Made by a program: the position numbers and the translations under genes. The notes under the pieces are model-generated. The model saw only the letters and a list, made by a program, of their open reading frames with translations. It was not told where the DNA came from and searched no databases. From assembly GCA_945787715.1 (NCBI GenBank), contig CALZJE010000025.1:1-44886 (forward strand): 44,886 bases of DNA, given 5' to 3'. Each line of letters starts with the position of its first letter. Within the stretch, counting starts at the first letter, position 1. Origin of the DNA: an uncultured Ectothiorhodospiraceae bacterium. Lineage in GTDB: Bacteria; Pseudomonadota; Gammaproteobacteria; S012-40. This document shows positions 21,077 through 43,679 of the stretch, one piece after another.

Positions 21077-21092
<16 letters not shown>

Positions 21093-22261
21093 GGTTCAAC
21101 TAACCAAACGTTTTCACGCTTCACTAAAATTCGTTTGCAGCCCATTTCAAAACCACTAACTTGCTGGTTTGGAAGTTCACGAATCACGCTTTCACCTGAT
21201 TCACGCAGCTCATGGATTTTATTTTCAAGAGCGGCATCATCCGTTGCTGGTGCAAAAATTCCATGGTCAGCCACCTCAAAATCAGGCAACAATTGGCAAA
21301 TAGCCCGCAGATCCATGCTATAACCAGTTGCACACCGCGCTCTACCAAACACTTTTCCGATATCGTCGTAGCGACCACCTTGAGCTATCGCTTGCCAGTA
21401 GCCCGGCACATAAGCGGCAAAAACAACACCAGTGTGATAACCATATCCTCTCAGCTCGGCAAGATCAAAATGGACGTTGATATCTGCGTAACGTTTTTTT
21501 AAACCGGTATATATGTCTTCTAGCTCTTGTAATGCCGCAAGTACAGATTGATTTGCTGAACCTAAGCTTTTTTTCGCTTCGGTTAATGTTTCTTCACCAC
21601 CATTTAAATCGGCTAGGGCTAAAAATGCTGCCTGACAATCGCTATCAAGAGCGGAGGTGAGTGATGCAATTTCTGGCTTGGCTTTACGTTGAAGTGCATC
21701 AAAAAGTAACTTTTCTAAATCACTATCAACACCATATTGACCAACCAACTCTCTGAATATTCCGACATGTCCCAAATCGAGCGATATCGCTTTTAAACCA
21801 CTTCGTTTTAGAGAGCTCAACATAAGCTCAAGGACTTCGATGTCACTTGCTATGCCACTATGACCAAAAAGCTCCGCCCCAATTTGAATGGGATTGCGGG
21901 AACCACCGAGTTCTCTGGGTTGAGTTAACAATACAGGGCCGGCATAGCATAAACGAGAAGGGCCATCATGCTGCATACGATGAGCATCAATTCGAGAGAC
22001 TTGCGGTGTAATATCTGCTCGCACGCCCAATAAACGCCCTGTTAACTCATCAGTTAACTTAAATGTATGTTTCTCTAAATCGTTACCTGTTCCAACCAGT
22101 AGAGACTCTAGATATTCCACCATGGGTGTCATTACATAGCGATATCCCCAGCGTTGATATAGCTTTAATATCGATCTTCTTAAAAATTCTATTTGCTCAG
22201 CTTGCTCAGGAAGTAGCTCATCAATACCTTCTGGCAGTAGCCAACGTTCTGTATCAGACAT
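21077..22261 (-). CDS. hisZ: ATP phosphoribosyltransferase regulatory subunit
   Basis: The protein has 394 residues. It is a catalytically inactive class II histidyl-tRNA synthetase paralogue: motif-2-like TFKLTDELTGRLLGVRADIT PQVSRIDAH is kept, and a late YGYHTGVVFAAYVPG region replaces the aminoacylation signature. HisZ assembles with short-form HisG to catalyse and regulate the first step of histidine synthesis. hisG itself is not in the window. Position between DUF2065 and purA is the usual one. The last codons overlap spacer repeat copy A. Confidence 0.93.
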
Positions 22262-22273
22262 TGTTTTTTCTTA

Positions 22274-22459
22274 TCAATTAACTAGATATAATAAAATTAA
22301 ACCAATAATCATTGAAACCAATCCACCCACTCTCAAACTTCTATCATCCATTTCCGCCATCTTGACTAGCATTTGACGCAGCCCATGAGGATTGAGAAAA
22401 GGTAAAATACCTTCAAGGATTAACAATAATGCAGTGGCAACCCATATGTCATGCCACAT
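22274..22459 (-). CDS. DUF2065 membrane protein
   Basis: The protein has 61 residues from the ATG at 22459, which follows AGGTGAAA and starts the conserved MWHDIWVATALLLILEGILP. Two membrane segments are visible: residues 5-20 and the C-terminal LVSMIIGLILLYLVN. It is an inner-membrane protein of unknown function that is almost always found between hflC and hisZ in gammaproteobacteria. The stop is 12 nt before hisZ. An upstream in-frame extension runs into spacer repeat copy B and is not conserved. Confidence 0.9.
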   Translation of the reverse strand: MWHDIWVATALLLILEGILPFLNPHGLRQMLVKMAEMDDRSLRVGGLVSMIIGLILLYLVN

Positions 22460-22502
22460 ATTTTCACCTATTATCCTATAAAGATCAGTTGGACGCGAGA
22501 TT

Positions 22503-22610
22503 AGAGTGCAAGCAATTGGTTTGGATGGCGTAATGAAAAGTTTTGCGATCACCTGATTGGTGATTCAAATACTTTTTATATAGCCAGGCGAATCAATAGA
22601 TTGTGCTCTC
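22503..22610. repeat. Palindromic spacer repeat, copy B (hflC-DUF2065)
   Basis: The core 22522-22595 aligns with copy A (GGCGTAATGAAAA, GATCACCTGATTGGTGAT, TATATAGCCAGGCGAATCAA). The outer arms differ in sequence from copy A but still pair partly (AGAGTGCAAGCAATT with ATTGTGCTCT). A further block at about 22660-22684 (ATCGCGGATCAACT, then TTTTTATAGG) matches the right flank of copy A after a gap of about 50 bp. Confidence 0.7.
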
Positions 22611-22699
22611 GACAATTGCTCCTGCATTGTTCTACCTTCGCGCATCCCTGCGCTCGTAAATCGCGGATCAACTGGTTTTTATAGGATTATACACTCATA

Positions 22700-22740
22700 C
22701 AAAAAATCGGGCGGTGTTTATTCACTAAACACCGCCCGAT
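22700..22740 (-). terminator. Terminator after hflC
   Basis: ATCGGGCGGTGTTTA (22706-22720) pairs perfectly with TAAACACCGCCCGAT (22726-22740) around a 5-nt loop. On the minus strand a T-run follows (22701-22707). Such a strong terminator inside the block means DUF2065-hisZ-purA probably has its own promoter. Confidence 0.85.
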
Positions 22741-22769
22741 CATTTAACTCAGCATTCTAAAAAAGGCTG

Positions 22770-23648
22770 TTACTTTTCTTCTTTAGTAGATGCGTTGAAA
22801 TATTTAAAGAACTCCGCATCTGGCTTAACAACCATAATGTCATTCTTACTTGCAAAAGAGCTTCTATATGCATTCAAACTACGATAGAAAGAGTAGAATT
22901 CTTTATTTTGCTCATATGCTGCTGCGTAGATTTTAGCTGATGATGCATCTCCCGCACCCTTGATTTGCTCAGCATCACGATAGCCTTCCGCAATAATGAT
23001 CTCACGTTGACGATCCGCATCTGCTGTAATTCTTTCCGCTTGCTCAGCACCGCGAGAACGAAAGTCTTTAGCAACCCTTCCGCGCTCTGCTTCCATACGT
23101 CGGAAAACCGAATTACTAACATCGCGAGGAAGATCAATACGCTTGATTCGTACATCCACAACCTCAATGCCGAACTCATTCACTTGATTGCTGGCGTTCA
23201 CTCTCAAGTTGTCCATAATCTGTGAACGTTCGCCAGATACAGCTTCCTGAATAGTGCGTTTACCAAACTCATTACGAAATCCATCTTTCACAATCTGTGA
23301 AATTCGAGTCGCAGCACGACGCTCGTCACCACCCATGGATTTATAGTATGACGCCACATCAATAATCCGCCACTTAACAAATGAATCGACCACAACGTTT
23401 TTCTTCTCGCTGGTCAAATACTCTTCTGGTGGTGCATCCATTGTTAAAATACGCGCATCGAATTTGCGGATATTATTAAAAATAGGAATCTTAAAATGAA
23501 CACCAGGCTCGAAATCAGTTGAAACAATCTCACCCAGACGAAACATGATTGCTTTCTCGCGCTCATCAACCGTAAACAGTGCAAAAGATCCAATGAATAT
23601 AGCTATCGCTACGACTATGCCGATTAATTTCATATTAATAGCGCCCAT
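22770..23648 (-). CDS. hflC: HflC, protease modulator
   Basis: The protein has 292 residues. The ATG overlaps the last base of the hflK TAA stop (TAATG), so translation is coupled. After one N-terminal membrane segment (KLIGIVVAIAIFIGSFALFT) the SPFH/prohibitin domain follows. It shows VDEREKAIMFRLGEIV, GVHFKIPIFNNIRKFDARIL and a long coiled part EAERGRVAKDFRSRGAEQAE. HflC forms with HflK a large membrane complex around the FtsH protease and modulates its activity. Confidence 0.96.
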   Translation of the reverse strand: MGAINMKLIGIVVAIAIFIGSFALFTVDEREKAIMFRLGEIVSTDFEPGVHFKIPIFNNIRKFDARILTMDAPPEEYLTSEKKNVVVDSFVKWRIIDVASYYKSMGGDERRAATRISQIVKDGFRNEFGKRTIQEAVSGERSQIMDNLRVNASNQVNEFGIEVVDVRIKRIDLPRDVSNSVFRRMEAERGRVAKDFRSRGAEQAERITADADRQREIIIAEGYRDAEQIKGAGDASSAKIYAAAYEQNKEFYSFYRSLNAYRSSFASKNDIMVVKPDAEFFKYFNASTKEEK

Positions 23649-24907
23649 TATCTTGCCCCCCTGTCACGTAAGGTATCTCGTAGTCGGCGTTCGACCTGTT
23701 GAGTTGCCGCAGGTATCTCCGCTGGAGGAACAAACTGCTGTATTACCGATGGCGATGATTGCTGATTAGCTTGCCCCATCAAGCGATCAAGTGGCAAGTA
23801 AAGCAAATTGTTGCCGCCTTCTACATCAATCATAACTTTTGTCGTATTACTCATAACCGTTTCGATAGTTTCCAGATATAAACGCTCACGTGTCACTTCA
23901 GGAGCAGCTTCAAACTCTTTGAGCAGTTGCGTGAAACGACTGGATTCACCTTCGGCTTGTGCGATGACACGTTCTTTATAACCATTCGATGCTTCAAGTT
24001 GCCTTGCTGCATTACCACGCGCTTTAGGGATAATATCATTAGAATAGGCTTCAGCATTGTTAATTAATCGCTGTTGATCCTCTCGCGCTCGGATTGCATC
24101 TTCAAATGAGTCACGCACCTCTTCAGGTGGCTGAGCACTTTGCAAGTTTACACTGGTTACCAGCAGTCCGGCTTTATAGTCATCAAGAATCGACTGGATT
24201 AATATTTCGGTACGTTCCGCAATGTCACTTTGTCCTTCAGTCAGCACAAAATCCATTTTACTTTTACCTATCGCTTCACGGATCGCACTTTCCGTTGCTT
24301 GGCGTAGTGTCATGTCAGGATCACGTACAGCGAATAAATAATCTTTTGCATCTTTCACACGATATTGAACCGCGAATTTAATATCTACGATATTCTCATC
24401 TTGCGTTAACATCATAGACTCTTGAGGAACGGTGCTCGCATCACGGCCTGTCGTTGAGCGATAACCCACTTCCACGTTTCTGCTTTGATCCACATCAACG
24501 ATTTCCACGCGATCAAATGGATAAGGAATATGCCAGTGAGGTCCAGGCTGAGTGGTGTCAGTATAAGCACCTAGCCTTAATACCACACCTCGTTCTGCAG
24601 GATCGACAATATATATCCCTGAAAAAATCCACATCAGAAAAAGAACACCAGCAAACACACCGATGAGTTTGGAGCTGGGCGCTCCGCCACCGAAAGAACT
24701 GCCGCCACCGCCACTAGTGCCGCCGCCTTTTTTGCCACCACCTTTCCCACCGAAAAGCTTAGTGACTTTATCTTGCATCTGCTTCACAACTTCATCCAGG
24801 TCTGGTGGGTTTTTATCGTTGCCTTTATCGCCGCGATTACCCCATGGGTCTTTTTTATCTTTCCCATCATCATCTCCACCAGAGCCACCGGGTTCATTCC
24901 AGGCCAT
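23648..24907 (-). CDS. hflK: HflK, protease modulator
   Basis: The protein has 419 residues from the ATG at 24907 (GGAG 5 nt upstream), beginning with the conserved MAWNEPGG. A long Gly/Asp/Lys-rich N-terminal stretch is followed by one membrane segment (LIGVFAGVLFLMWIFSGIYI) and the SPFH domain (VDPAERGVVLRLGAYTD). The C-terminal coil has QAEGESSRFTQLLKEFEAAP. A glycine-rich linker (GGKGGGKKGGGTSGGGGSS) is typical. It is the partner of HflC in the FtsH-modulating complex. Confidence 0.96.
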   Translation of the reverse strand: MAWNEPGGSGGDDDGKDKKDPWGNRGDKGNDKNPPDLDEVVKQMQDKVTKLFGGKGGGKKGGGTSGGGGSSFGGGAPSSKLIGVFAGVLFLMWIFSGIYIVDPAERGVVLRLGAYTDTTQPGPHWHIPYPFDRVEIVDVDQSRNVEVGYRSTTGRDASTVPQESMMLTQDENIVDIKFAVQYRVKDAKDYLFAVRDPDMTLRQATESAIREAIGKSKMDFVLTEGQSDIAERTEILIQSILDDYKAGLLVTSVNLQSAQPPEEVRDSFEDAIRAREDQQRLINNAEAYSNDIIPKARGNAARQLEASNGYKERVIAQAEGESSRFTQLLKEFEAAPEVTRERLYLETIETVMSNTTKVMIDVEGGNNLLYLPLDRLMGQANQQSSPSVIQQFVPPAEIPAATQQVERRLRDTLRDRGAR

Positions 24908-24994
24908 GTTCACTCCATTTTCTTTAATGCCAGATTTCTCAATTATCTTCATAATTTCATTCCCAAAATATCTCGCTCGCGAAATATTAGTTGT

Positions 24995-26278
24995 TTAACC
25001 CGCACTTGATGCCTCTAAAATATAACTTTGATTGGGTACAATTTCTTCCAATCGATGTTTTTGCATACTAACTTCAATCAAAAAACCGCCGTCTTCAGGA
25101 TCACTCTCACCAACAACAACGCCAAGCTCATAGAACCTCGCGCGCATTTTTGCATCAGATGGTTTAAGTTTTACCCAACAATGGACAAACTCCTGACCAA
25201 AAAACTCTTTTAATGATTCTATAACAAGATCAATTCCATTTCCTGTTTTTGATGAAAGCCAAATGCGTTTTGCCCGGCCATTTTCATCATAGTCCACATG
25301 AGGTTCGACATCATCTAACAAATCGATTTTATTGTAAATTTCTATTTGGTGAATATCATCAGCTTCAATTTCTGCTAACACCAAATTCACCTGATCAATG
25401 CGGTCTTTTCGATCAGGATGTGACGCATCAATGACATGAAGCAATAAATGCGCTTGTTGAGTTTCTTCTAGAGTTGATCGAAATGCCGCTACCAAATCGT
25501 GCGGTAGTTGCCGAATAAACCCGACGGTGTCAGCCAAAACAATTGGGCCAGCATCTGCAATCTCAACTCGACGTAGAGTGGGGTCTAAAGTCGCGAATAA
25601 CTGATCTTCAGCGTAAACTGTTGCACCAGTCATGGTATTAAACAAAGTAGATTTGCCAGCATTAGTGTATCCAACCAAAGAGACTGTTGGTATTTCCGCA
25701 CGTTTACGAGAGCGACGACCCTGCTGGCGTTGCTTCTGTACTTTTTCCAAGCGCTTATTAATATGCTTAATTCGATCATTAAGCAGCCGCCTATCAGTTT
25801 CCAGCTGAGTTTCACCTGGACCTCTTAAACCGATACCACCTTTTTGACGTTCAAGATGAGTCCACCCCCGAATTAAGCGTGTTGACAAATGTTTAAGCTG
25901 AGCAAGCTCAACTTGTAACTTACCTTCAAATGATCGAGCTCTTTGCGCAAAAATGTCGAGAATTAATCCTGTTCGGTCAACAACCTTACACTTTAATTCT
26001 CGCTCTAGGTTTCGCTCTTGCGCAGGTGAGAGCGCATGGTCAAAAATAACAACATCAGCTTCGCATTCAATGACTGTTTGTTGTATCTCTTCCGCTTTCC
26101 CTTTACCCACAAAATATTTCGGGTCTGGACGATGACGAGACCCTGAGATAAATTCGATAACCTTTACTCCAGCAGATTCAACAAGCTCCTTAAATTCATC
26201 CGGTTCTCCGGATTCTTCAGAGCCTATCTGTAACTGTACGAGTAAAGCGTTTTCCCCGCCACGATGACGCTCAAACAA
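24995..26278 (-). CDS. hflX: Ribosome-associated GTPase HflX
   Basis: The protein has 427 residues and starts with TTG at 26278 (FERHRGGENALLVQ), which matches the usual N-terminus of the family; no ATG fits. The N-terminal HflX domain includes FDHALSPAQERNLERELKCK, DRTGLILDIFAQRARSFEGK and ERQKGGIGLRGPGETQLETD. The GTPase domain shows G1 GYTNAGKST, G3 DTVGFIRQLP and G4 NKIDLL. HflX splits or rescues stalled ribosomes during stress. It follows hfq by 71 nt. Confidence 0.96.
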   Translation of the reverse strand: MFERHRGGENALLVQLQIGSEESGEPDEFKELVESAGVKVIEFISGSRHRPDPKYFVGKGKAEEIQQTVIECEADVVIFDHALSPAQERNLERELKCKVVDRTGLILDIFAQRARSFEGKLQVELAQLKHLSTRLIRGWTHLERQKGGIGLRGPGETQLETDRRLLNDRIKHINKRLEKVQKQRQQGRRSRKRAEIPTVSLVGYTNAGKSTLFNTMTGATVYAEDQLFATLDPTLRRVEIADAGPIVLADTVGFIRQLPHDLVAAFRSTLEETQQAHLLLHVIDASHPDRKDRIDQVNLVLAEIEADDIHQIEIYNKIDLLDDVEPHVDYDENGRAKRIWLSSKTGNGIDLVIESLKEFFGQEFVHCWVKLKPSDAKMRARFYELGVVVGESDPEDGGFLIEVSMQKHRLEEIVPNQSYILEASSAG

Positions 26279-26349: not shown

Positions 26350-26595
26350 TTAACCATTTCCGCTTTCTGGCGTCTCATCTGTTGTCAAACGTATATTACG
26401 AGCTGGAACGACGGTTGAAATAGCGTGTTTATATACCATTTGGTTTACAGTATTTTTTAGTAAAACAACAAATTGATCAAAAGAATCCACTTGCCCTTGT
26501 AACTTTATACCATTTACTAAGTAAATCGATACGGGTACCTTTTCTTTTCGCAACATGTTAAGGAACGGGTCTTGTAGACTTTGCCCTTTTGACAT
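26350..26595 (-). CDS. hfq: RNA chaperone Hfq
   Basis: The protein has 81 residues, with AAGGAG before the ATG. The Sm1 motif ([20 protein letters not shown]) and the Sm2 segment ([14 protein letters not shown]) are intact, with the proximal-face residues YKHAIST. The C-terminal tail is short ([15 protein letters not shown]). Hexameric Hfq pairs small RNAs with mRNAs. The gene follows miaA after a 541-nt spacer, longer than in many relatives, so it probably has its own promoters. Confidence 0.97.
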
Positions 26596-27136: not shown

Positions 27137-28081
27137 CTAGCCCATTAATTTTGGGACTTTTTCTAAATTTTTCAAGGTAATTTCAATAAAATCTTGTTCA
27201 TTGGAATATATCCACTGCAACTCATCCTCAGATCTCAGCCAAGTCAATTGCCGCTTGGCTAATTGTCGTGTTGCTACGACTCCTTTGTAGACCATTTCAT
27301 CGTATGATAATTCACCATCCAAATATTGCCACACTTGTCGATACCCAACTGCTCTCATTGAAGGTTTATCCAAATTGAGATCATTTCTTGAGCGTAATTT
27401 TTCAACTTCCTCAACAAGCCCCTCATCTAACATTTCAACAAATCGGCTCTCAATGCGTTGATGTAAAATTGAACGATCTTGCGTATTCAATGCGAATTTA
27501 ATAAGCTCAAAAGGAAAACTGTGTTTTTGTTCTTTTCTCCACCATTCGCTAATAGGAACGCCAGAAATCTCAAAAACCTCAACAGCACGCTGAAGTCGCT
27601 GCGGATCATTTGGGTGAATTTTCTCCGCTGCTTCAGGATCAATTTTTCGCAGTCGCTCATGCAAAGCTTGGGACCCTTTTTCTGATAGAAATTGATCGAG
27701 CTTTGCTCGCACTTCTGAATTCGCAGAAGGTAACTCAGATAGCCCCCGAGTCAGCGCTCGATAATAGAGCATCGTACCACCAGCTAACAATGGGACTTTA
27801 CCTCTTTCGACAATATCTTCCATTGCTGCTATCGCATCGTTTCGAAATTGCGCAACGGAATATGCCTCTGCTGGATCGCATATATCAATTAAATGATGAG
27901 GATATTTTTTAAGTGTTTGTTTATCAGGTTTGGATGTGCCGATATCCATCTCTCGATAGACTAGAGCAGAATCAACACTGATAATTTCGACAGGAAAGTA
28001 TTCAGCTATTTTTAGTGCTAATGCAGTTTTCCCTGATGCCGTGGGCCCCATGAGAAAAAGTGCGAGTGGTAATTCAGACAT
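27137..28081 (-). CDS. miaA: tRNA dimethylallyltransferase
   Basis: The protein has 314 residues. The P-loop GPTASGKTALAL, the DSALVYREMDIGTSKP segment, HHLIDICDPAEAYSVAQF, AGGTMLYYRAL and DPQRLQRAVEV are all conserved. MiaA adds a dimethylallyl group to A37 of tRNAs reading UNN codons. It usually lies downstream of mutL; here the upstream side is a MITE-like element and a response regulator instead, so the canonical order is broken at about 28.1 kb. Confidence 0.97.
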   Translation of the reverse strand: MSELPLALFLMGPTASGKTALALKIAEYFPVEIISVDSALVYREMDIGTSKPDKQTLKKYPHHLIDICDPAEAYSVAQFRNDAIAAMEDIVERGKVPLLAGGTMLYYRALTRGLSELPSANSEVRAKLDQFLSEKGSQALHERLRKIDPEAAEKIHPNDPQRLQRAVEVFEISGVPISEWWRKEQKHSFPFELIKFALNTQDRSILHQRIESRFVEMLDEGLVEEVEKLRSRNDLNLDKPSMRAVGYRQVWQYLDGELSYDEMVYKGVVATRQLAKRQLTWLRSEDELQWIYSNEQDFIEITLKNLEKVPKLMG

Positions 28082-28322: not shown

Positions 28323-28330
28323 AGATAAAA

Positions 28331-28365
28331 AAACCACATTACGATAAGGCAATGTGGTTTTTTTA
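28331..28365 (-). terminator. Terminator of the GacA-like gene
   Basis: AAACCACATT (28331-28340) pairs with AATGTGGTTT (28351-28360), flanked by A-runs and T-runs on both sides. It can act on either strand. It lies about 85 nt after the stop of the regulator. Confidence 0.8.
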
Positions 28366-28447: not shown

Positions 28448-29080
28448 CTATGCTTCCATCAATCCTCGCCTAATCGCCAAACGGGTTAATGACACATCGC
28501 TATCAACACCCAACTTTGAAAAGAGTCGGTAGCGATACGTATTAATCGTTTTAGGGCTCAGACACAATTGATCTGAAATAGACATGACTTTACTTCCAGA
28601 TGTGATCATCATCATAACCTGCATTTCTCTCGCGGATAGCGTTGAGAAAGGATTTGAATCACCACTCATCCGGCCTAATGCCATTTGTTGAGCACAATCA
28701 ATTCCAAGATAACGACGATCAGCAGCAACCTCTTTTATTGCGTTTGTCACTTCTGACACAGATGCTTGACGAGTAATAAATCCTTTAGCCCCCGCTTGCA
28801 AGAATTGACTTGGCAATGGATCTGCTGTTTGCGTACTTAAAATTAATATTTTGAGGCTACTATTAACCGCAATCAATTCCTTGATTAGGTCAAAGCTCTC
28901 TACACTAGGTGATGAAACCTCAAATACGATGACATCAACCGGATGCTCTTTTACAACACTTGCTACATCAGCCAGCTCTTCGGCAACACCCACAACATGA
29001 AACTCAGGTACATTGTCGATAATTTGAGACAAGCTGGCACAAATTAAACGATAACTGCTAATAATGAGTACATCAATCAC
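28448..29080 (-). CDS. GacA/UvrY-like LuxR-type regulator with degenerate receiver
   Basis: The protein has 210 residues from a GTG at 29080 with GGGAGG just upstream. Length and layout match GacA/UvrY. The C-terminal LuxR-type helix-turn-helix is well conserved (STLSAREMQVMMMI, LCLSPKTINTYRYRLFSKLG). The receiver is not. The acidic pair (Asp8-Asp9 in GacA) is Ser8-Ser9, the phosphoacceptor Asp54 is Glu54 (VIVFEVSSPS), and the conserved Lys104 is Arg104 (GFITRQAS). Ser82 keeps the Thr/Ser position. It therefore probably works without phosphotransfer, or as a constitutively active or atypical form. GacA activates small RNAs that titrate CsrA/RsmA. Whether a normal GacA exists elsewhere in the genome is unknown. 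Confidence 0.85.
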   Translation of the reverse strand: MIDVLIISSYRLICASLSQIIDNVPEFHVVGVAEELADVASVVKEHPVDVIVFEVSSPSVESFDLIKELIAVNSSLKILILSTQTADPLPSQFLQAGAKGFITRQASVSEVTNAIKEVAADRRYLGIDCAQQMALGRMSGDSNPFSTLSAREMQVMMMITSGSKVMSISDQLCLSPKTINTYRYRLFSKLGVDSDVSLTRLAIRRGLMEA

Positions 29081-29462
29081 AGTTGCCTCCCTTAAATATG
29101 AGTACGTTTTTGTTCTTGTGCTGTTTTACTATATTGACATCTTATTATTTTTATTGTTTATGCATGGTAAATGTATCAAGAAAAATATCAACTAATTTAC
29201 TCGGAAATTATCATAAACTAGCACTAATTGATTTTATTACAACAATAAGAAATGCTTTTGACTGACATATAACGAGGATAATTCGTACATTTCCCCACTA
29301 TTTGCACATTTATTACCCACATTGAGCAAGACCTATATAAATATTGGACGCTCACTCGCTCACTTATGTTTATCAAAATTGGGGATTTGAATTGCCTAGG
29401 ACAGTTCTGAATCATTCAGCCTCATAACAAATTTAGATACAGGAAAAAGAGGAAAGTTTGCA
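29081..29462. other. Divergent promoter region, GacA-like and rquA
   Basis: About 380 AT-rich bases between divergent genes. It contains the 13-bp palindrome at 29407-29419. No clear FNR-type box (TTGAT-N4-ATCAA) was seen. Nothing else was recognised. Confidence 0.5.
29407..29419. promoter_or_regulatory. Palindrome CTGAATCATTCAG upstream of rquA
   Basis: CTGAAT and ATTCAG are arranged as a perfect inverted repeat around one C, 44 nt before the rquA start. The half-site is the same hexamer that is tandemly repeated at 13.8 and 14.5 kb. A regulator site is possible. Confidence 0.35.
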
Positions 29463-37091: not shown

Positions 37092-39092
37092 ATGTTGAAA
37101 ATAATTATTGCGCCGAACGCTTTGAAAGGAAGTTTGTCAGCAATCGATGCAGCAAATGCAATTGAATCAGGTATCACCCGCGCTTTGCCCAATGTAGATA
37201 CTTGTAAACTTCCAATTGCCGATGGTGGAGATGGTTTATCTGCTGTGTTGGCAAATAGCTTAAATGCTTCCCGTATAAAATGCACAGCAAATAATCCCAT
37301 TGGCAAACCTATTGAAGTCGAATATCTGTATTGTAAAGAACGACAATTGGCAATCATCGAAATGGCTTCAGCTGCAGGTTTGGCATTGCTAAGTCCTACT
37401 GAGTACGACCCATTACATGCTAATACGTATGGTGTAGGCCAAATGATTTTGTCGGCACTTGATCAAGGCGCAAAACATATTGTGCTTGGGATAGGTGGTA
37501 GCGCGAGCAATGACGGTGGAACAGGATTGGCTAATGCGTTAGGGTTTCAATTTCTCGATAAAGACGATCAACAATTAGCACCTGGGGGAATGAATCTTTC
37601 CAATACAGTGAGGATTGATCCAAAAAACATCGACCCACGTCTTTATGATATGAAATTTCAAATTGCCTGTGATGTTGATAATCCTCTTCTCGGTTCACGC
37701 GGTGCAGCAAAAGTTTACGGGCCACAAAAAGGTGCGACTGAAGATCAGATAGAAATTCTGGAAAATGGATTCAATAAATTTGCTGACGTGCTCAACAAAC
37801 ACTGCGGAAAAGATATTCATGATTGCGAAGGTGCCGGTGCTGCTGGTGGTCTTGGTGCAGCTATGATGGCTTTGTTTGACGCGCAACTATCCTCCGGCGC
37901 AGATCTGGTTCTGGATATTATCGAATTTGAAAAGCACGCTGCAGGAGCAGATCTTGTGATTACCTCTGAGGGAAAACTTGATGAGCAGACCCAATACGGA
38001 AAAGCGCCTTTTGTGTTAGCAAAGCGAGCCACAAAATTAGAGATACCCTGTGCTGTCATTGCAGGACAGGTTGAAGGGGAACAGGAAAACTATCTTGCCA
38101 TGGGGTTTTCCGCGGTGTTTTCTCTCTGTTCATCGTTAATTGATAGCCAGAAGGCAATTGAAAACGCAGCATCATTATTGGCGGACACAACTGAAAATAT
38201 AATTTTAGCTTTTAATATGAGAAACAGTTTCCTCACGAAGATAAAACAGATAGAAGAAAGGTCGACCATGATTAATAAATGTTTATTCCCCGCAGCAGGC
38301 TACGGTACACGTTTTTTACCGGCAACAAAATCCATGCCCAAAGAAATTTTACCCATCCTGGATAAGCCCCTCATACAATATGGTGTCGAAGAAGCTATGG
38401 ACGCCGGAATGAAGGAAATTGCCATTGTCACAGGTCGTGGTAAGCGAGCGCTGGCAGATCATTTCGATACAAACTACGAATTGGAACATCAAATCGCTGG
38501 CACAGCTAAAGAGGATCTACTCTCCAATATTCGTAAAGTCATCGATGAATGTCGATTTTCGTATACGCGACAAACAGAAATGCGTGGATTAGGTGATGCA
38601 ATCCTGTGTGGTGAAACATTAATTGGTAAAGAGGCATTCGGAGTAATACTCGCGGACGATTTATGTATCGGCAGCAGCGACTCAGTTATGGCGCAAATGG
38701 CAGCCATCTATCGAAAATATCAGTGCAGCATTATTGCAATCAGTGAAGTAGAAGAGTCAGAAGTACATAAATATGGAATCGTTGATGGAAAACAAATTGA
38801 TGATAATGTATTTATGGTTTCTTCTCTTATTGAAAAACCAGATCCATCAGAAGCCCCAAGCAATCTCGCAGTAATTGGTCGATATATTTTGACACCCGAA
38901 ATATTCTCAATATTAAAAAGAACGCCACTTGGAAAAAATAATGAATTGCAACTGACAGACGCACTGCAAATTCAGGCACAAGAAAATATGGTACTCGCAT
39001 ACAAATTTGATGGTAAACGATTTGATTGTGGCGGAATCGATGGTTTTGTGGAAGCAACCAATTATTTTTATCAGAAACGAATAGCGAAATAA
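37092..39092 (+). CDS. Glycerate kinase - GalU fusion protein
   Basis: This is a single uninterrupted frame of 666 residues. Residues 1 to about 378 are a GarK/GlxK-type (class II) glycerate kinase: IIAPNALKGSLSAIDAANAI, LPIADGGDGLSAVL, GIGGSASNDGGTGLANALG and ITSEGKLDEQTQYGKAPF. A linker of about 15 residues follows. Residues 393-666 are a UTP-glucose-1-phosphate uridylyltransferase: FPAAGYGTRFLPATKSMPKE, QTEMRGLGDAILCGETLIGK, GVILADDL, IEKPDPSEAPSNLAVIGRYI and FDCGGIDGFVEA. Both domains are full-length with no missing motif. The combined protein would phosphorylate glycerate and make UDP-glucose. An internal ATG (38268) with its own ribosome site may also give GalU alone. The stop overlaps the next gene (TAATG). 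Confidence 0.9.
   Translation: MLKIIIAPNALKGSLSAIDAANAIESGITRALPNVDTCKLPIADGGDGLSAVLANSLNASRIKCTANNPIGKPIEVEYLYCKERQLAIIEMASAAGLALLSPTEYDPLHANTYGVGQMILSALDQGAKHIVLGIGGSASNDGGTGLANALGFQFLDKDDQQLAPGGMNLSNTVRIDPKNIDPRLYDMKFQIACDVDNPLLGSRGAAKVYGPQKGATEDQIEILENGFNKFADVLNKHCGKDIHDCEGAGAAGGLGAAMMALFDAQLSSGADLVLDIIEFEKHAAGADLVITSEGKLDEQTQYGKAPFVLAKRATKLEIPCAVIAGQVEGEQENYLAMGFSAVFSLCSSLIDSQKAIENAASLLADTTENIILAFNMRNSFLTKIKQIEERSTMINKCLFPAAGYGTRFLPATKSMPKEILPILDKPLIQYGVEEAMDAGMKEIAIVTGRGKRALADHFDTNYELEHQIAGTAKEDLLSNIRKVIDECRFSYTRQTEMRGLGDAILCGETLIGKEAFGVILADDLCIGSSDSVMAQMAAIYRKYQCSIIAISEVEESEVHKYGIVDGKQIDDNVFMVSSLIEKPDPSEAPSNLAVIGRYILTPEIFSILKRTPLGKNNELQLTDALQIQAQENMVLAYKFDGKRFDCGGIDGFVEATNYFYQKRIAK
38255..38270 (+). 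promoter_or_regulatory. Internal ribosome site before the GalU half
   Basis: AGAAAGG (38255-38261) lies 6 nt before an in-frame ATG (38268-38270), exactly where a normal GalU would begin (MINKCLFPAAGYGTRF). It suggests that separate genes fused by loss of a stop codon, and that free GalU might still be made. Confidence 0.5.
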
Positions 39093-39964
39093 TGGATTAT
39101 AACGGTAGTCCTTCTCACATGAATGTTTTAAGGGAAAATATAAAGGACTTGATTGTTTTTACCGATCTTGATGGCACTTTGCTAGATCACGATACGTACT
39201 CATTTGACGAAGCCATGCCTGCATTAAATCGCCTACGGAAACTTGGCATACCAGTTATACCAACAACAAGCAAAACTTTTGCAGAACTAGAAGTTCTTTT
39301 ACAAGAACTCGACATGATGTCTCCAGTTATTGTAGAAAACGGAGGTGTTATTGCAATACCAATTAGTAACGATTCACCTACTTCTCCGCAACAACATCGA
39401 ATAGGAGACTTTAACCTATCTCACACGACGGTGGACTATACATCAATTATTGAAGTCTTGAAAAATATCCGTGCAAAATATCATTTAAAGTTTCGAGGCT
39501 TTAATGATATGGATGTTGCAGAAATTTCAGAAATCACAGGTTTGAACTTTGAAAAAGCCGAGAATGCAAAAAAACGATTGTGTTCCGAGCCGTTAATCTG
39601 GGTGGATAGTGATAAAAATCTCAATAAATTCGAAAATGAACTTAAAAGATATCATCTAAGCATGACACAAGGTGGTAGATTTTGGCATGTAATGGGTGAA
39701 GCCAGTAAAAGCAAAGCAATGAAAGAAGTCGTCGAAATATATCAGCGCAAGCTTGGAGAAAATTTGACAGTCATTGCACTTGGAGATAACGCAAATGATA
39801 TTTCCATGTTGAAATCCGCTGATATAGGTGTAGTTATCAGACGAAAAGATCAAAGCTGTTTATCTTTCGAAAGTGGAAATAAGATTTACACCTCAAGTTT
39901 AAGTGGGCCCGCAGGATGGAATGCGTTTTTTATGCACTTTTTAGACAACTATCCTACTAGCTGA
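39092..39964 (+). CDS. Glucosyl/mannosyl-3-phosphoglycerate phosphatase
   Basis: The protein has 290 residues from the ATG at 39092, which overlaps the preceding stop (TAATG); another ATG at 39119 is possible. It is a HAD-superfamily Cof/MPGP-type phosphatase. The nucleophile motif is VFTDLDGTLLDHDTYSFDEA, the second motif is IPTTSKT, and the end motif is LTVIALGDNANDISMLKSAD. The cap segment VIVENGGVIAIP and the substrate region GGRFWHVMGEASKSKAMKEV are typical of MpgP/YedP. It would remove the phosphate from glucosyl-3-phosphoglycerate to give glucosylglycerate. Length fits the family (271 in E. coli YedP). Confidence 0.85.
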   Translation: MDYNGSPSHMNVLRENIKDLIVFTDLDGTLLDHDTYSFDEAMPALNRLRKLGIPVIPTTSKTFAELEVLLQELDMMSPVIVENGGVIAIPISNDSPTSPQQHRIGDFNLSHTTVDYTSIIEVLKNIRAKYHLKFRGFNDMDVAEISEITGLNFEKAENAKKRLCSEPLIWVDSDKNLNKFENELKRYHLSMTQGGRFWHVMGEASKSKAMKEVVEIYQRKLGENLTVIALGDNANDISMLKSADIGVVIRRKDQSCLSFESGNKIYTSSLSGPAGWNAFFMHFLDNYPTS

Positions 39965-39978
39965 TTTAGGAGATATAC

Positions 39979-41190
39979 ATGGCAGACTTTTTTCAAAATG
40001 GAGAGATTACAACACTACACAAATTGGGTAATCACTCCATTGAATCCATGGAACAGGAATTAACAAGTTTTTCAGAAGATTATCCAATGGCATTAATTCT
40101 ACCCAGTCTTTACTCAGAATTGGAAGGAAAGGCTATGCCAAAGATTGTAAACGATCTTAAGCAGGCTACTTATATAAGGGATATCATTGTCGGGCTTGAT
40201 TGCGCAAGCAAGAAACAATTTGAACACGCCAAACAATTCTTTTCTGAGTTACCACAACAGGTTCATATATTATGGAATGATGGTGATCGTCTACGGGCAC
40301 TCGATCAAAAACTACAAACAGAAGATCTCGCACCTTTACATGCAGGAAAAGGTAGAAATGCCTGGTATTGTTTTGGATATGCATTAGCATTAGAGCATTG
40401 TCATGCTGTTGCACTTCATGATTGTGACATATTAACCTATGATCGCAGTATACCTGCACGCCTGTTTTATCCCATAACAAATCCCACTTTTAATTTTGAA
40501 TTTTGTAAAGGCTATTATCCAAGAATTAATGGCGATAAGTTTGGTGGTAGGGTTACTCGACTTTTTGTGACGCCCATATTGCGCGCATTAAAAAAAGTGC
40601 TTGGGGCTCATAATTATCTCGAATACATGGACAGCTTCCGTTATCCATTGTCTGGCGAATTTTCCATGAGTAAAAATGTCATCAAAGATATGCGAATACC
40701 TAGTGATTGGGGATTAGAGATCGGGGTACTTTCTGAAGCTTACCGAAACTTGTCACAGCATAGAATTTGCCAGGTTGATATTGCAGACCAATACGATCAC
40801 AAGCACCAAGACTTGAATGCAGAAGAAGCTATTGGTGGTTTAGAAAAAATGAGCATTGAAATCTCAAAATCGCTTTTTAGAAAGCTCGCTACTGAAGGCT
40901 GCTCTCTTTCTGAAGCTGATTTTCGCGCCATAAAAGCGTGCTATTTTAGAATAGCTTTGGATTGTACTGAACAATATTATTATGATGCAAAGATTAACGG
41001 ACTAAAATATGATCGACATCAAGAAGAAAGTAGTATTGAAATGTTCTCCCAATGTATATTAAAAGCGGGTGAATCTTATTTGACAACGCCCATGGAAGCA
41101 CCTTTTATTCCAAACTGGAACCGAGTATTAAGTGTTGCGCCTAGTTTTGGTGAGCAAATGTTGGAAGCTGTTTCTCTAGATAATCAATAA
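39979..41190 (+). CDS. gpgS: Glucosyl-3-phosphoglycerate synthase (GpgS-like, GT81)
   Basis: The protein has 403 residues, with TAGGAGA before the ATG. It is a retaining GT-A glycosyltransferase of the GpgS type. Visible features are the N-terminal MALILPSLYSELEGKAMPKI, nucleotide-binding DIIVGLDCASKKQFEHAKQF, the glycine-lysine segment HAGKGRNAWYCFGYALALEH and the metal-binding DCD in VALHDCDILTYDRS. Later come SGEFSMSKNVIKDMRIPSDW and GLEIGVLSEAYRNL. It transfers glucose from an NDP-glucose to 3-phosphoglycerate, the first step of glucosylglycerate synthesis. A mannosyl-donor role cannot be ruled out from sequence, but the fused GalU supports glucose. Confidence 0.88.
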   Translation: MADFFQNGEITTLHKLGNHSIESMEQELTSFSEDYPMALILPSLYSELEGKAMPKIVNDLKQATYIRDIIVGLDCASKKQFEHAKQFFSELPQQVHILWNDGDRLRALDQKLQTEDLAPLHAGKGRNAWYCFGYALALEHCHAVALHDCDILTYDRSIPARLFYPITNPTFNFEFCKGYYPRINGDKFGGRVTRLFVTPILRALKKVLGAHNYLEYMDSFRYPLSGEFSMSKNVIKDMRIPSDWGLEIGVLSEAYRNLSQHRICQVDIADQYDHKHQDLNAEEAIGGLEKMSIEISKSLFRKLATEGCSLSEADFRAIKACYFRIALDCTEQYYYDAKINGLKYDRHQEESSIEMFSQCILKAGESYLTTPMEAPFIPNWNRVLSVAPSFGEQMLEAVSLDNQ

Positions 41191-41237
41191 TATTGATGGT
41201 TGTAAACGTAATCACACGCAAGCGATATAGGAGGTTA

Positions 41238-41279
41238 GGGATGTGCACGTAACAGATTCTATATTACGCATCTCATCCC
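41238..41279. terminator. Hairpin between gpgS and the phosphorylase gene
   Basis: GGGATG (41238-41243) pairs with CATCCC (41274-41279), with further pairing of ACGTAA and TTACG inside. It lies at the convergent ends of two genes. No T-run is present, so its role as terminator is tentative. Confidence 0.4.
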
Positions 41280-43028
41280 CTACTGCTTGCTAAACCAATA
41301 GGCTGCGTAAGGTGGCAATGTCAGACCTTCAGATGTTAAATCAGTTTCGCATTCACCAAGCACATCAACCCAACCCACCAAATTAACTGAAAGCTCTTGC
41401 CAGGAAACATATTGCCTGACTTGAGTGAAGTTATATAGCGCAACAATAGTTTGTTTATTATCAATAGCCGTACGTTTCAATCCAAAAACTTCATTTTTCA
41501 GATCGAGTATTGATTGTGAAGCGTCGGGGTGAAATGCGAGCTGTTTCCGTCTAATGTTCAGGTAATGTTTATAGGAACGAAATACTCGCCCAGATTCACT
41601 CTCGTGATTTGCCAATAGACTTTCAAGTTCACTTCGATCCCACTTGCGTCGGTTAATCGAGCGTGTCTGACCTGTTCGCTCAACACCAATATTGTCATTG
41701 GGAGTGGCAAATAAACTATGAATATAAACCGCAGGAATTCCTTTAAACGATAAAGTAAATAATTGGGAAAGCAGGAATGCTGGGATATGCCATTGATACA
41801 TATCCACATGCGGATCACGAAATGCATCAAAGTATGAAATATTTAATTCATACGGGCTTTCAGATCCATCACGGTTTCTTTTTGTCGATATATATCCACC
41901 TCGATCACGCAAGGCATCAAGCATTGCTTGCTTTTTTTGTTCAGGCACCAATCCTTCCAGCGGCCGTAAACCGACTCCATCGTGAGATGCAGTGAAATTC
42001 AAAAAAGTACAATCAGGTGAAAGAAACATGGAATCCAGTTCTTTAGCCCAGGCTCGCAAGTATTCCGTATTATGCGAAAAAATAGCATGCAATAAAAGAG
42101 GAGGCAAACTAAACTGATAGATAACATGTGCCTCATCACCGTCACCAAAATAGGTAATATTCTCATCATGAGGCACATTGGTTTCAGTCATGATCAGCGC
42201 GCCAGGTTCGACTAACGAAAGTACATCTCGAAATAACTTTACCACTTCGTGAGTTTGTGGCAAATGAATACAGCTGGTTCCTAGTTCTTTCCACAAATAG
42301 GCAACTGCATCCAATCGGACCATTCGCGCACCTTTTCGAAAATAATCCAATAAAATATCAAGAAACTCGAGTAATACATCCGGAGATTGGTAATTCATAT
42401 CAATCTGGTCGTTGCTGAAAGTTGCCCAGACATGACGCATTCCGCTGTGGGTACGCACTCCAGTGAGTACAGGAGTACTTCTCGGACGCACGACCATCGA
42501 CAAGTTTTCATCAGGATTCATTTCAATAAAGAAATCCTTGGTTTTCTCACTTCCTGTTAGGTAATCTGTAAACCACAAGTTTTCTCGCGAGCAGTGATTA
42601 AGCACAAGATCTACGACCAAATCATAATTTTCTTCAAGCGCAGAGATATCTTCCCATGTCCCCAACTCTGGATTGACCGTACGAAAATCGGTAATGGAGA
42701 ATCCATCGTCCGAACTGTAGGGAAAAAAGGGGAGAAGGTGGAGCATACTGAATTCTGCTGGCAAATTACGATTTAAAAAACTTCGCATGGTTTGCAATGG
42801 AGGCTGACTGGGTGATTGAATCGTATCACCGTATGTTATTAATACGATGTCTTCATGTGTCCAATATGGACCAGTAACAGACCGACTACGCATATCCTGA
42901 TGATCAACAATGAGCTGAAAAATACGCTGACTTACGTTGCTACCGATTTTTTCGCCATAAAGTTGTTTTGATCGTTTGATAATATTTTCTTTATAAATCG
43001 ACTCATTATTAATTTTTAATTGATTCAT
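41280..43028 (-). CDS. GH13_18 glycoside phosphorylase, probably glucosylglycerate phosphorylase
   Basis: The protein has 582 residues from the ATG at 43028; earlier in-frame starts are possible up to 43076. It is a sucrose-phosphorylase-like GH13 enzyme: LLPFFPYSSDDGFSITDF, VVDLVLNHCSRENLWF, the nucleophile Asp240 in VRLDAVAYLWKELG, the acid/base Glu282 in LIMTETNVPH and the stabilising Asp350 in NFTASHDGVGLRPLEG. The length, longer than sucrose phosphorylase (about 490), fits the glucosylglycerate phosphorylase group of GH13_18, which includes E. coli YcjM. It would split glucosylglycerate with phosphate into glucose-1-phosphate and glycerate. The neighbouring synthesis genes strongly support that substrate; sucrose or glucosylglycerol are alternatives. 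Confidence 0.85.
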   Translation of the reverse strand: MNQLKINNESIYKENIIKRSKQLYGEKIGSNVSQRIFQLIVDHQDMRSRSVTGPYWTHEDIVLITYGDTIQSPSQPPLQTMRSFLNRNLPAEFSMLHLLPFFPYSSDDGFSITDFRTVNPELGTWEDISALEENYDLVVDLVLNHCSRENLWFTDYLTGSEKTKDFFIEMNPDENLSMVVRPRSTPVLTGVRTHSGMRHVWATFSNDQIDMNYQSPDVLLEFLDILLDYFRKGARMVRLDAVAYLWKELGTSCIHLPQTHEVVKLFRDVLSLVEPGALIMTETNVPHDENITYFGDGDEAHVIYQFSLPPLLLHAIFSHNTEYLRAWAKELDSMFLSPDCTFLNFTASHDGVGLRPLEGLVPEQKKQAMLDALRDRGGYISTKRNRDGSESPYELNISYFDAFRDPHVDMYQWHIPAFLLSQLFTLSFKGIPAVYIHSLFATPNDNIGVERTGQTRSINRRKWDRSELESLLANHESESGRVFRSYKHYLNIRRKQLAFHPDASQSILDLKNEVFGLKRTAIDNKQTIVALYNFTQVRQYVSWQELSVNLVGWVDVLGECETDLTSEGLTLPPYAAYWFSKQ

Positions 43029-43679
43029 TACAATCATCACTTGCACTACGTTGGTGAGATAAATATTCTTTCGCACTCGAGGTGAACATATTTTTATGGT
43101 TCATGGCAAATTTCAAAGCTTGCATGATCTCTTATCACTACAGCATGTTGCGTACCATAAATATAAGAACTTAAACACTAACTCGAATTATTTGTTGTCG
43201 TGGAGGTACTCCTCTATCCTTTTATATTCGCTCTGCGAGTATGTTATCTATCTCGAAGATCTTAAATCAACACCAGCTAATTTAATTTCGAAATTTCTCC
43301 ACGACGTCTGAGGGCATATTCAAACTTAGAAAATAATTATCGAACCAACTATCGAAACATGCCGAATTCAAAGTTTCCCGATAATACAGTCAATCAGTTT
43401 ATTAATGAGTTGGAAATAAAAGGTTGACGCTACAACCAAGTCTTTAGTGAAATGATCACAGATCTGAGTTTGAATTTTTATTAAACATTTATCATAACTA
43501 CTCAGCGTCTTTTTAATTAAAAACGTAGAATTGAGTGAAAGTAGAGTGAAACTAGCTTTACATCCTTTGCTACAAATTGATGAACGTAGTGATGAACTTT
43601 GTTGATAATAAATTTATCATATTTTTTCTTGGGGTTTTCAGTGGTTTCAATCTTCATAGCTTATCCACATGAGCTAATT
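43029..43679. other. Intergenic region, nothing recognised
   Basis: About 650 AT-rich bases. A 71-codon frame at 43096-43311 (plus) has no ribosome site or family likeness. The phosphorylase promoter should lie at its left end. Confidence 0.5.

Follow-up and report, generated by a model that had tools for sequence, protein, structure and literature searches.

GacA is normally activated by phosphate transfer, and the acidic pair of receiver domains holds Mg2+. Because pseudo-receivers carrying Glu are common, the kind of change described below is already known, and Glu-bearing pseudo-receivers are an established class. Pseudo-receivers make up several percent of all receivers (PMC12632262; PMC4395418). 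In those without the aspartate, its place is taken most often by Glu, and the second acidic position as a rule holds a non-acidic residue; activating and non-activating examples of Glu at the phosphoacceptor site both exist (PMC12632262). In E. coli, binding of UvrY to its 18-bp site needs phosphorylation almost absolutely (PMC4682653), so that phosphate-free activity in a relative must be gained and not assumed. In Aeromonas dhakensis UvrY, D54E and D54A alike restored the measured phenotype; mimicry is therefore not demonstrated by D54E, and not every output of the GacA/UvrY family requires phosphorylation (PMC7250320). One survey of such receivers mentions neither GacA nor UvrY in its text (PMC4395418), and the literature searched gave no description of a GacA pseudo-receiver at a fixed locus that also exists in canonical and deleted form.

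The locus considered here lies in a window of 44,886 nucleotides, the whole stretch of DNA that was analysed, from an uncultured Ectothiorhodospiraceae bacterium. The reading frame lies at the coordinates given in the original prediction, and its features are as follows.

28448..29080, minus strand: gacA ortholog with a pseudo-receiver, 210 aa, GTG start (from the open reading frame, domains, family model, and chromosomal position)
28721..29080, minus strand: pseudo-receiver domain, residues 1-120, with 28-29% identity to canonical receivers and 23 of 37 conserved positions replaced
29051..29059, minus strand: S8 S9 Y10, replacing the acidic pair D-D-H (alignment)
28919..28921, minus strand: E54 (GAG) at the phosphoacceptor position (alignment; codon read directly)
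28835..28837, minus strand: S82, the conserved T/S position, unaltered here (alignment)
28769..28771, minus strand: R104 (CGT), replacing the conserved Lys (alignment; codon read directly)
28457..28654, minus strand: GerE/LuxR-type DNA-binding domain (PF00196), residues 143-208, well kept
29086..29091, minus strand: Shine-Dalgarno sequence GGGAGG, with the same sequence and spacing in the congener (genome G001)
28327..28364, no strand assigned: perfect A/T-flanked hairpin (AAAAAAACCACATT...AATGTGGTTTTTTT), terminator-like, between gacA and miaA; read directly, and not reported by the consensus scan

The GTG start is also kept in the congener. Family scans found a PF00072 receiver (48 bits) and a PF00196 GerE domain, and the best NCBIfam model was that of UvrY/SirA/GacA, matched over the full length at 213.1 bits; this falls short of the NCBI equivalog cut-off of 280 bits, so the protein does not count as a standard UvrY equivalog. 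The structure predicted from 31 sequences shows the whole receiver fold together with a GerE domain (mean pLDDT 89.5), and Foldseek matched it to NarL-type regulators, among them LiaR, RcsB, and EvgA. With GacA, UvrY, SirA, VarA, and LetA the window protein shares its domain layout, the full-length family match, a chromosomal position seen in sister genera, and a near-identical recognition helix (SPKTINTYRYRLFSKL), whereas its acidic pair, phosphoacceptor Asp, and Lys are replaced and its score is 213 bits against the cut-off of 280. It resembles the aspartate-less receivers ChxR, HP1043, RitR, and Rem (PMC4395418, PMC12632262) in having a receiver, recognised by profile, that lacks the phosphotransfer residues, the changed residues being conserved in the one congener; unlike them, it arose in situ from a regulator that is widespread among Gammaproteobacteria, at a locus with canonical and deleted versions in sister genera. 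The A. dhakensis UvrY D54E protein belongs to the same family and has Glu at the same position, but is a laboratory single mutant in which the rest of the receiver is canonical (PMC7250320).

The phosphotransfer residues were tallied in 104 aligned GacA-type and related sequences, among which the congener is counted twice (L002, L041). Where canonical GacA has D, D, D, T/S, and K, the window protein has S8, S9, E54, S82, and R104. Asp is found at position 8 in 100 of the 104 sequences, at position 9 in 99, and at position 54 in 100, with Glu54 solely in the window protein and its congener (L002/L041); Lys104 is likewise kept in 100. The combination S-S-E-R is confined to these two proteins. 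The alignment thus confirms the Ser-Ser pair, Glu54, and Arg104 that had been read from the window sequence, and the phosphorylatable receiver (DD, D, and K) of a GacS/GacA system is lacking here. The further claim that all main catalytic positions had changed was overstated: four of five are changed, but Ser82 is the normal residue (Ser in 73 of 104) and K104R keeps the charge. The congener has Cys at position 82, and classical Y-T coupling is therefore not a constant feature. Degeneration is also seen in a GacA-like protein from another family of the class (L023 1501-2112, minus strand, in G036:C42), which has D8, Q9, N54, and Q104; its gene adjoins uvrC and it sits on a very long branch of the gene tree.

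Comparison with the congener rests on one genome, with dN and dS estimated by NG86. S8, S9, Y10, E54, and R104 are all kept there, which is what the original prediction had proposed to look for among orthologs (at S8, S9, E54, and R104), and this at synonymous sites that are saturated between the two gacA genes (NG86 gives no value); in the flanking genes, dS is 2.1 for miaA and 3.2 for hflK, and hflX is saturated. The dN of gacA is 0.16 for the whole gene, 0.23 for the receiver, and 0.05 for the DNA-binding domain. Protein identity with the congener is 75.6% for GacA, compared with 74.5% for HflX, 72% for HflK, and 64% for MiaA. The changes cluster in the receiver. Of its 37 positions with a conservation of 90% or more in canonical GacA, 23 carry another residue in the window protein, with the same new residue in the congener at 18 of the 23, and receiver identity to canonical relatives is 28-29%, against 56-68% for canonical pairs. 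The claim that the DNA-binding domain is well kept stands. Its identity is 92% to the congener and 59-68% to canonical GacA (canonical pairs, 65-71%), and in the linker and DNA-binding part only positions 121 and 188 differ among 33 equally conserved ones. Since the congener keeps the residues despite saturated dS and the receiver alone has diverged, the window GacA is very probably a conserved pseudo-receiver and not a product of decay, as the original prediction of a selected loss of phosphotransfer residues had it. Judged from this one congener, the receiver seems to have changed in a burst and then to have come under constraint again.

The gene lies in the conserved order gacA-miaA-hfq-hflX-hflK-hflC-hisZ. 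The flank was placed from open reading frames and comparison of loci:

27137..28081, minus strand: miaA, first gene of the conserved flank
26350..26595, minus strand: hfq
21077..26278, minus strand: hflX, hflK, hflC, and hisZ

Canonical GacA (D-D-D-K) adjoins miaA and hfq in the sister genomes G005, G006, G011, and G012 and in G033; for G005, G006, G033, and the congener the gene order was traced onward through hflX-hflK-hflC-hisZ. Of 104 loci, 8 (from seven genomes) showed gacA beside miaA and 19 showed uvrC instead. The window gene is the positional ortholog of the canonical GacA of sister genera. In four sister genera (G002, G003, G004, G009), gacA is absent although the miaA locus is intact, and the yccA-like gene found beyond gacA in the congener is the next gene past miaA in G003. 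In gene trees the window pair sits on a long stem without resolved placement, and a clade with the canonical GacA of the family was not rejected (p-AU 0.205 for the full protein and 0.23 for the DNA-binding part). Horizontal acquisition would be compatible with the gene tree alone, but is not supported because the chromosomal position is that of the canonical orthologs. The search for a canonical GacA elsewhere in the same genome, proposed with the original prediction, found no second GacA besides the window copy; the next paralog is 24% identical (E 1e-10).

Elsewhere in the window, a 666-aa open reading frame at 37092-39092 (plus strand) fuses glycerate 2-kinase-like and GalU-like UTP-glucose-1-phosphate uridylyltransferase parts, the latter from about residue 395. 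Next come genes for a phosphatase (39026-39964) and for a synthase (39979-41190) resembling mannosyl-/glucosyl-3-phosphoglycerate enzymes, and a sucrose-phosphorylase-like gene lies nearby at 41280-43076 (minus strand). All of these were assigned by eye, and the genes of 37092-43076 are probably a compatible-solute operon.

The companion search for GacS did turn up a BarA-like tripartite kinase in the window genome, but one clustered with another canonical response regulator. This protein (G000:C9) has an sCache_4 sensor, a kinase, a receiver, and a C-terminal Hpt-like segment with its His kept. It belongs to a clade comprising the window genus, G002, G004, G007, G009, and G010 (support 100/99), and the BarA of G033 is the moderately supported neighbour of this clade (85/80). 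In the window genus, G002, G004, G007, and G009, the kinase is encoded with its own NarL-type response regulator, in which DD, D, and K are kept; in G003, the sCache_4 kinase belongs to a different type. The sCache_4 domain was considered as a marker of GacS and rejected, since it picks this kinase beside another response regulator and so does not identify a partner of the window GacA. No sCache_4 match was found in the canonical-GacA genomes of the family (G005, G006, G011, G012), so that the clustered kinase and a canonical GacA were not found together in any genome of the family; G006 and G012 carry another BarA-like tripartite kinase. From this arrangement we infer that the BarA-type kinase may have been rewired to another response regulator. 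The correlation between kinase cluster and GacA may represent one event on the tree and not several, since a PurA tree places the window genus with G002, G003, G004, G007, and G009 in one group (87/90).

Two further observations concern these signalling genes. A response-regulator gene with an output domain in the BarA-like cluster of the window genome (L121 9506-10448; G000:C9, about 33.5-34.4 kb) appears broken, its receiver frame containing two TAA codons where G004, G007, and G009 have a long intact open reading frame. In G005, a stand-alone GacS-type Hpt protein (L129 684-1052, minus strand, in G005:C43) is encoded about 3 kb from canonical gacA; a relative with 53% identity occurs in G011 and none in the window genome, and the protein is possibly part of a split GacS relay.

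On the output side, 14 of the 15 genomes examined have CsrA, whether or not they have GacA. It is present in the window genome, where a second, more divergent csrA copy (G000:C204:826-978, plus strand) scores 74 bits against 92 for the main copy. One perfect GacA box occurs in the window genome, at G000:C22:30653, upstream of a YhcB-like gene. It was rejected as a target: one-mismatch boxes in the genome numbered five, with six for the reversed-pattern control, no CsrB/RsmZ-like or GGA-rich RNA followed any GacA-box site examined, and no relative of the YhcB-like gene was found in the congener.

On balance, these results are best read, with odds a little better than even, as a sole GacA that has been cut off from the phosphorelay and kept as a phosphorylation-independent DNA-binding protein. 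In a lineage where the gene for the BarA-like kinase adjoins that for another, canonical NarL-type regulator, GacA would have become detached from the GacS/BarA phosphorelay; sister genera would have deleted gacA while the window genus retained it. The retained protein would dimerise and bind GacA-type sites without phosphorylation. A putative fixed ion pair between Glu54 and Arg104, together with the lost Mg2+ site, may hold one conformation, probably active-like; output would then be set by the expression level of the regulator. Glu54 may also act as a phosphate mimic, a capacity that the original prediction noted for some receivers. The protein, its DNA-binding domain above all, remains under purifying selection. 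Constitutive, phosphorylation-independent activity as the mechanism itself stands at even odds.

Four other readings were weighed. The pseudo-receiver might have acquired a new direct input, sensing a ligand or partner protein, so that the regulator is still switched. Between window and congener, the beta1-alpha1 (83% identity) and beta4-alpha5 (77%) regions of the receiver are far better kept than the middle (49%), as if these surfaces were used; however, dimerisation would explain their conservation too and no partner gene adjoins the window gacA, which makes a new input unlikely. There is a slimmer chance that the protein is a passive competitor or repressor, which binds GacA-type sites without activating or is held in an inactive state. 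Activating chemistry has been lost while the DNA-binding domain was kept, and canonical UvrY is inactive when unphosphorylated (PMC4682653), but the genome has no other GacA with which to compete. Transitional decay, with the gene on its way to the loss already seen at the intact miaA locus of sister genera, would suit the position of G003 as nearest to the window genus in the PurA tree (weak support), yet it is very improbable: the dN and dS values strongly disfavour it, the reading frame is intact, ribosome-binding site and start are conserved, and identity remains at 92% in the DNA-binding domain and 75% overall in spite of saturated synonymous divergence. Equally far-fetched is the idea that the protein is still phosphorylated, either unconventionally at Glu or a Ser or through cross-talk with one of the many hybrid kinases and Hpt domains of the genome, since the acidic pair that would hold Mg2+ is gone and, while Glu and Ser are modifiable in principle, bacterial Glu phosphorylation in signalling has no known example (PMC4395418).

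The reading of a GacA retained without its phosphorelay could form part of a wider rewiring, in which the BarA-type kinase moved to another regulator, GacA became constitutive through coordinated receiver changes, sister genera discarded it, and CsrA came under different control; this larger scheme is tentative, and rather doubtful as a whole. DNA binding by E. coli UvrY depends almost wholly on phosphorylation (PMC4682653), so a GacA conserved without the phosphotransfer residues raises the question of which receiver changes can replace the phosphate. With a canonical gene in G005, G006, and G033, a pseudo-receiver in the window genus, and loss in G002, G003, G004, and G009, this one fixed locus is a natural experiment on the origin of a pseudo-receiver.
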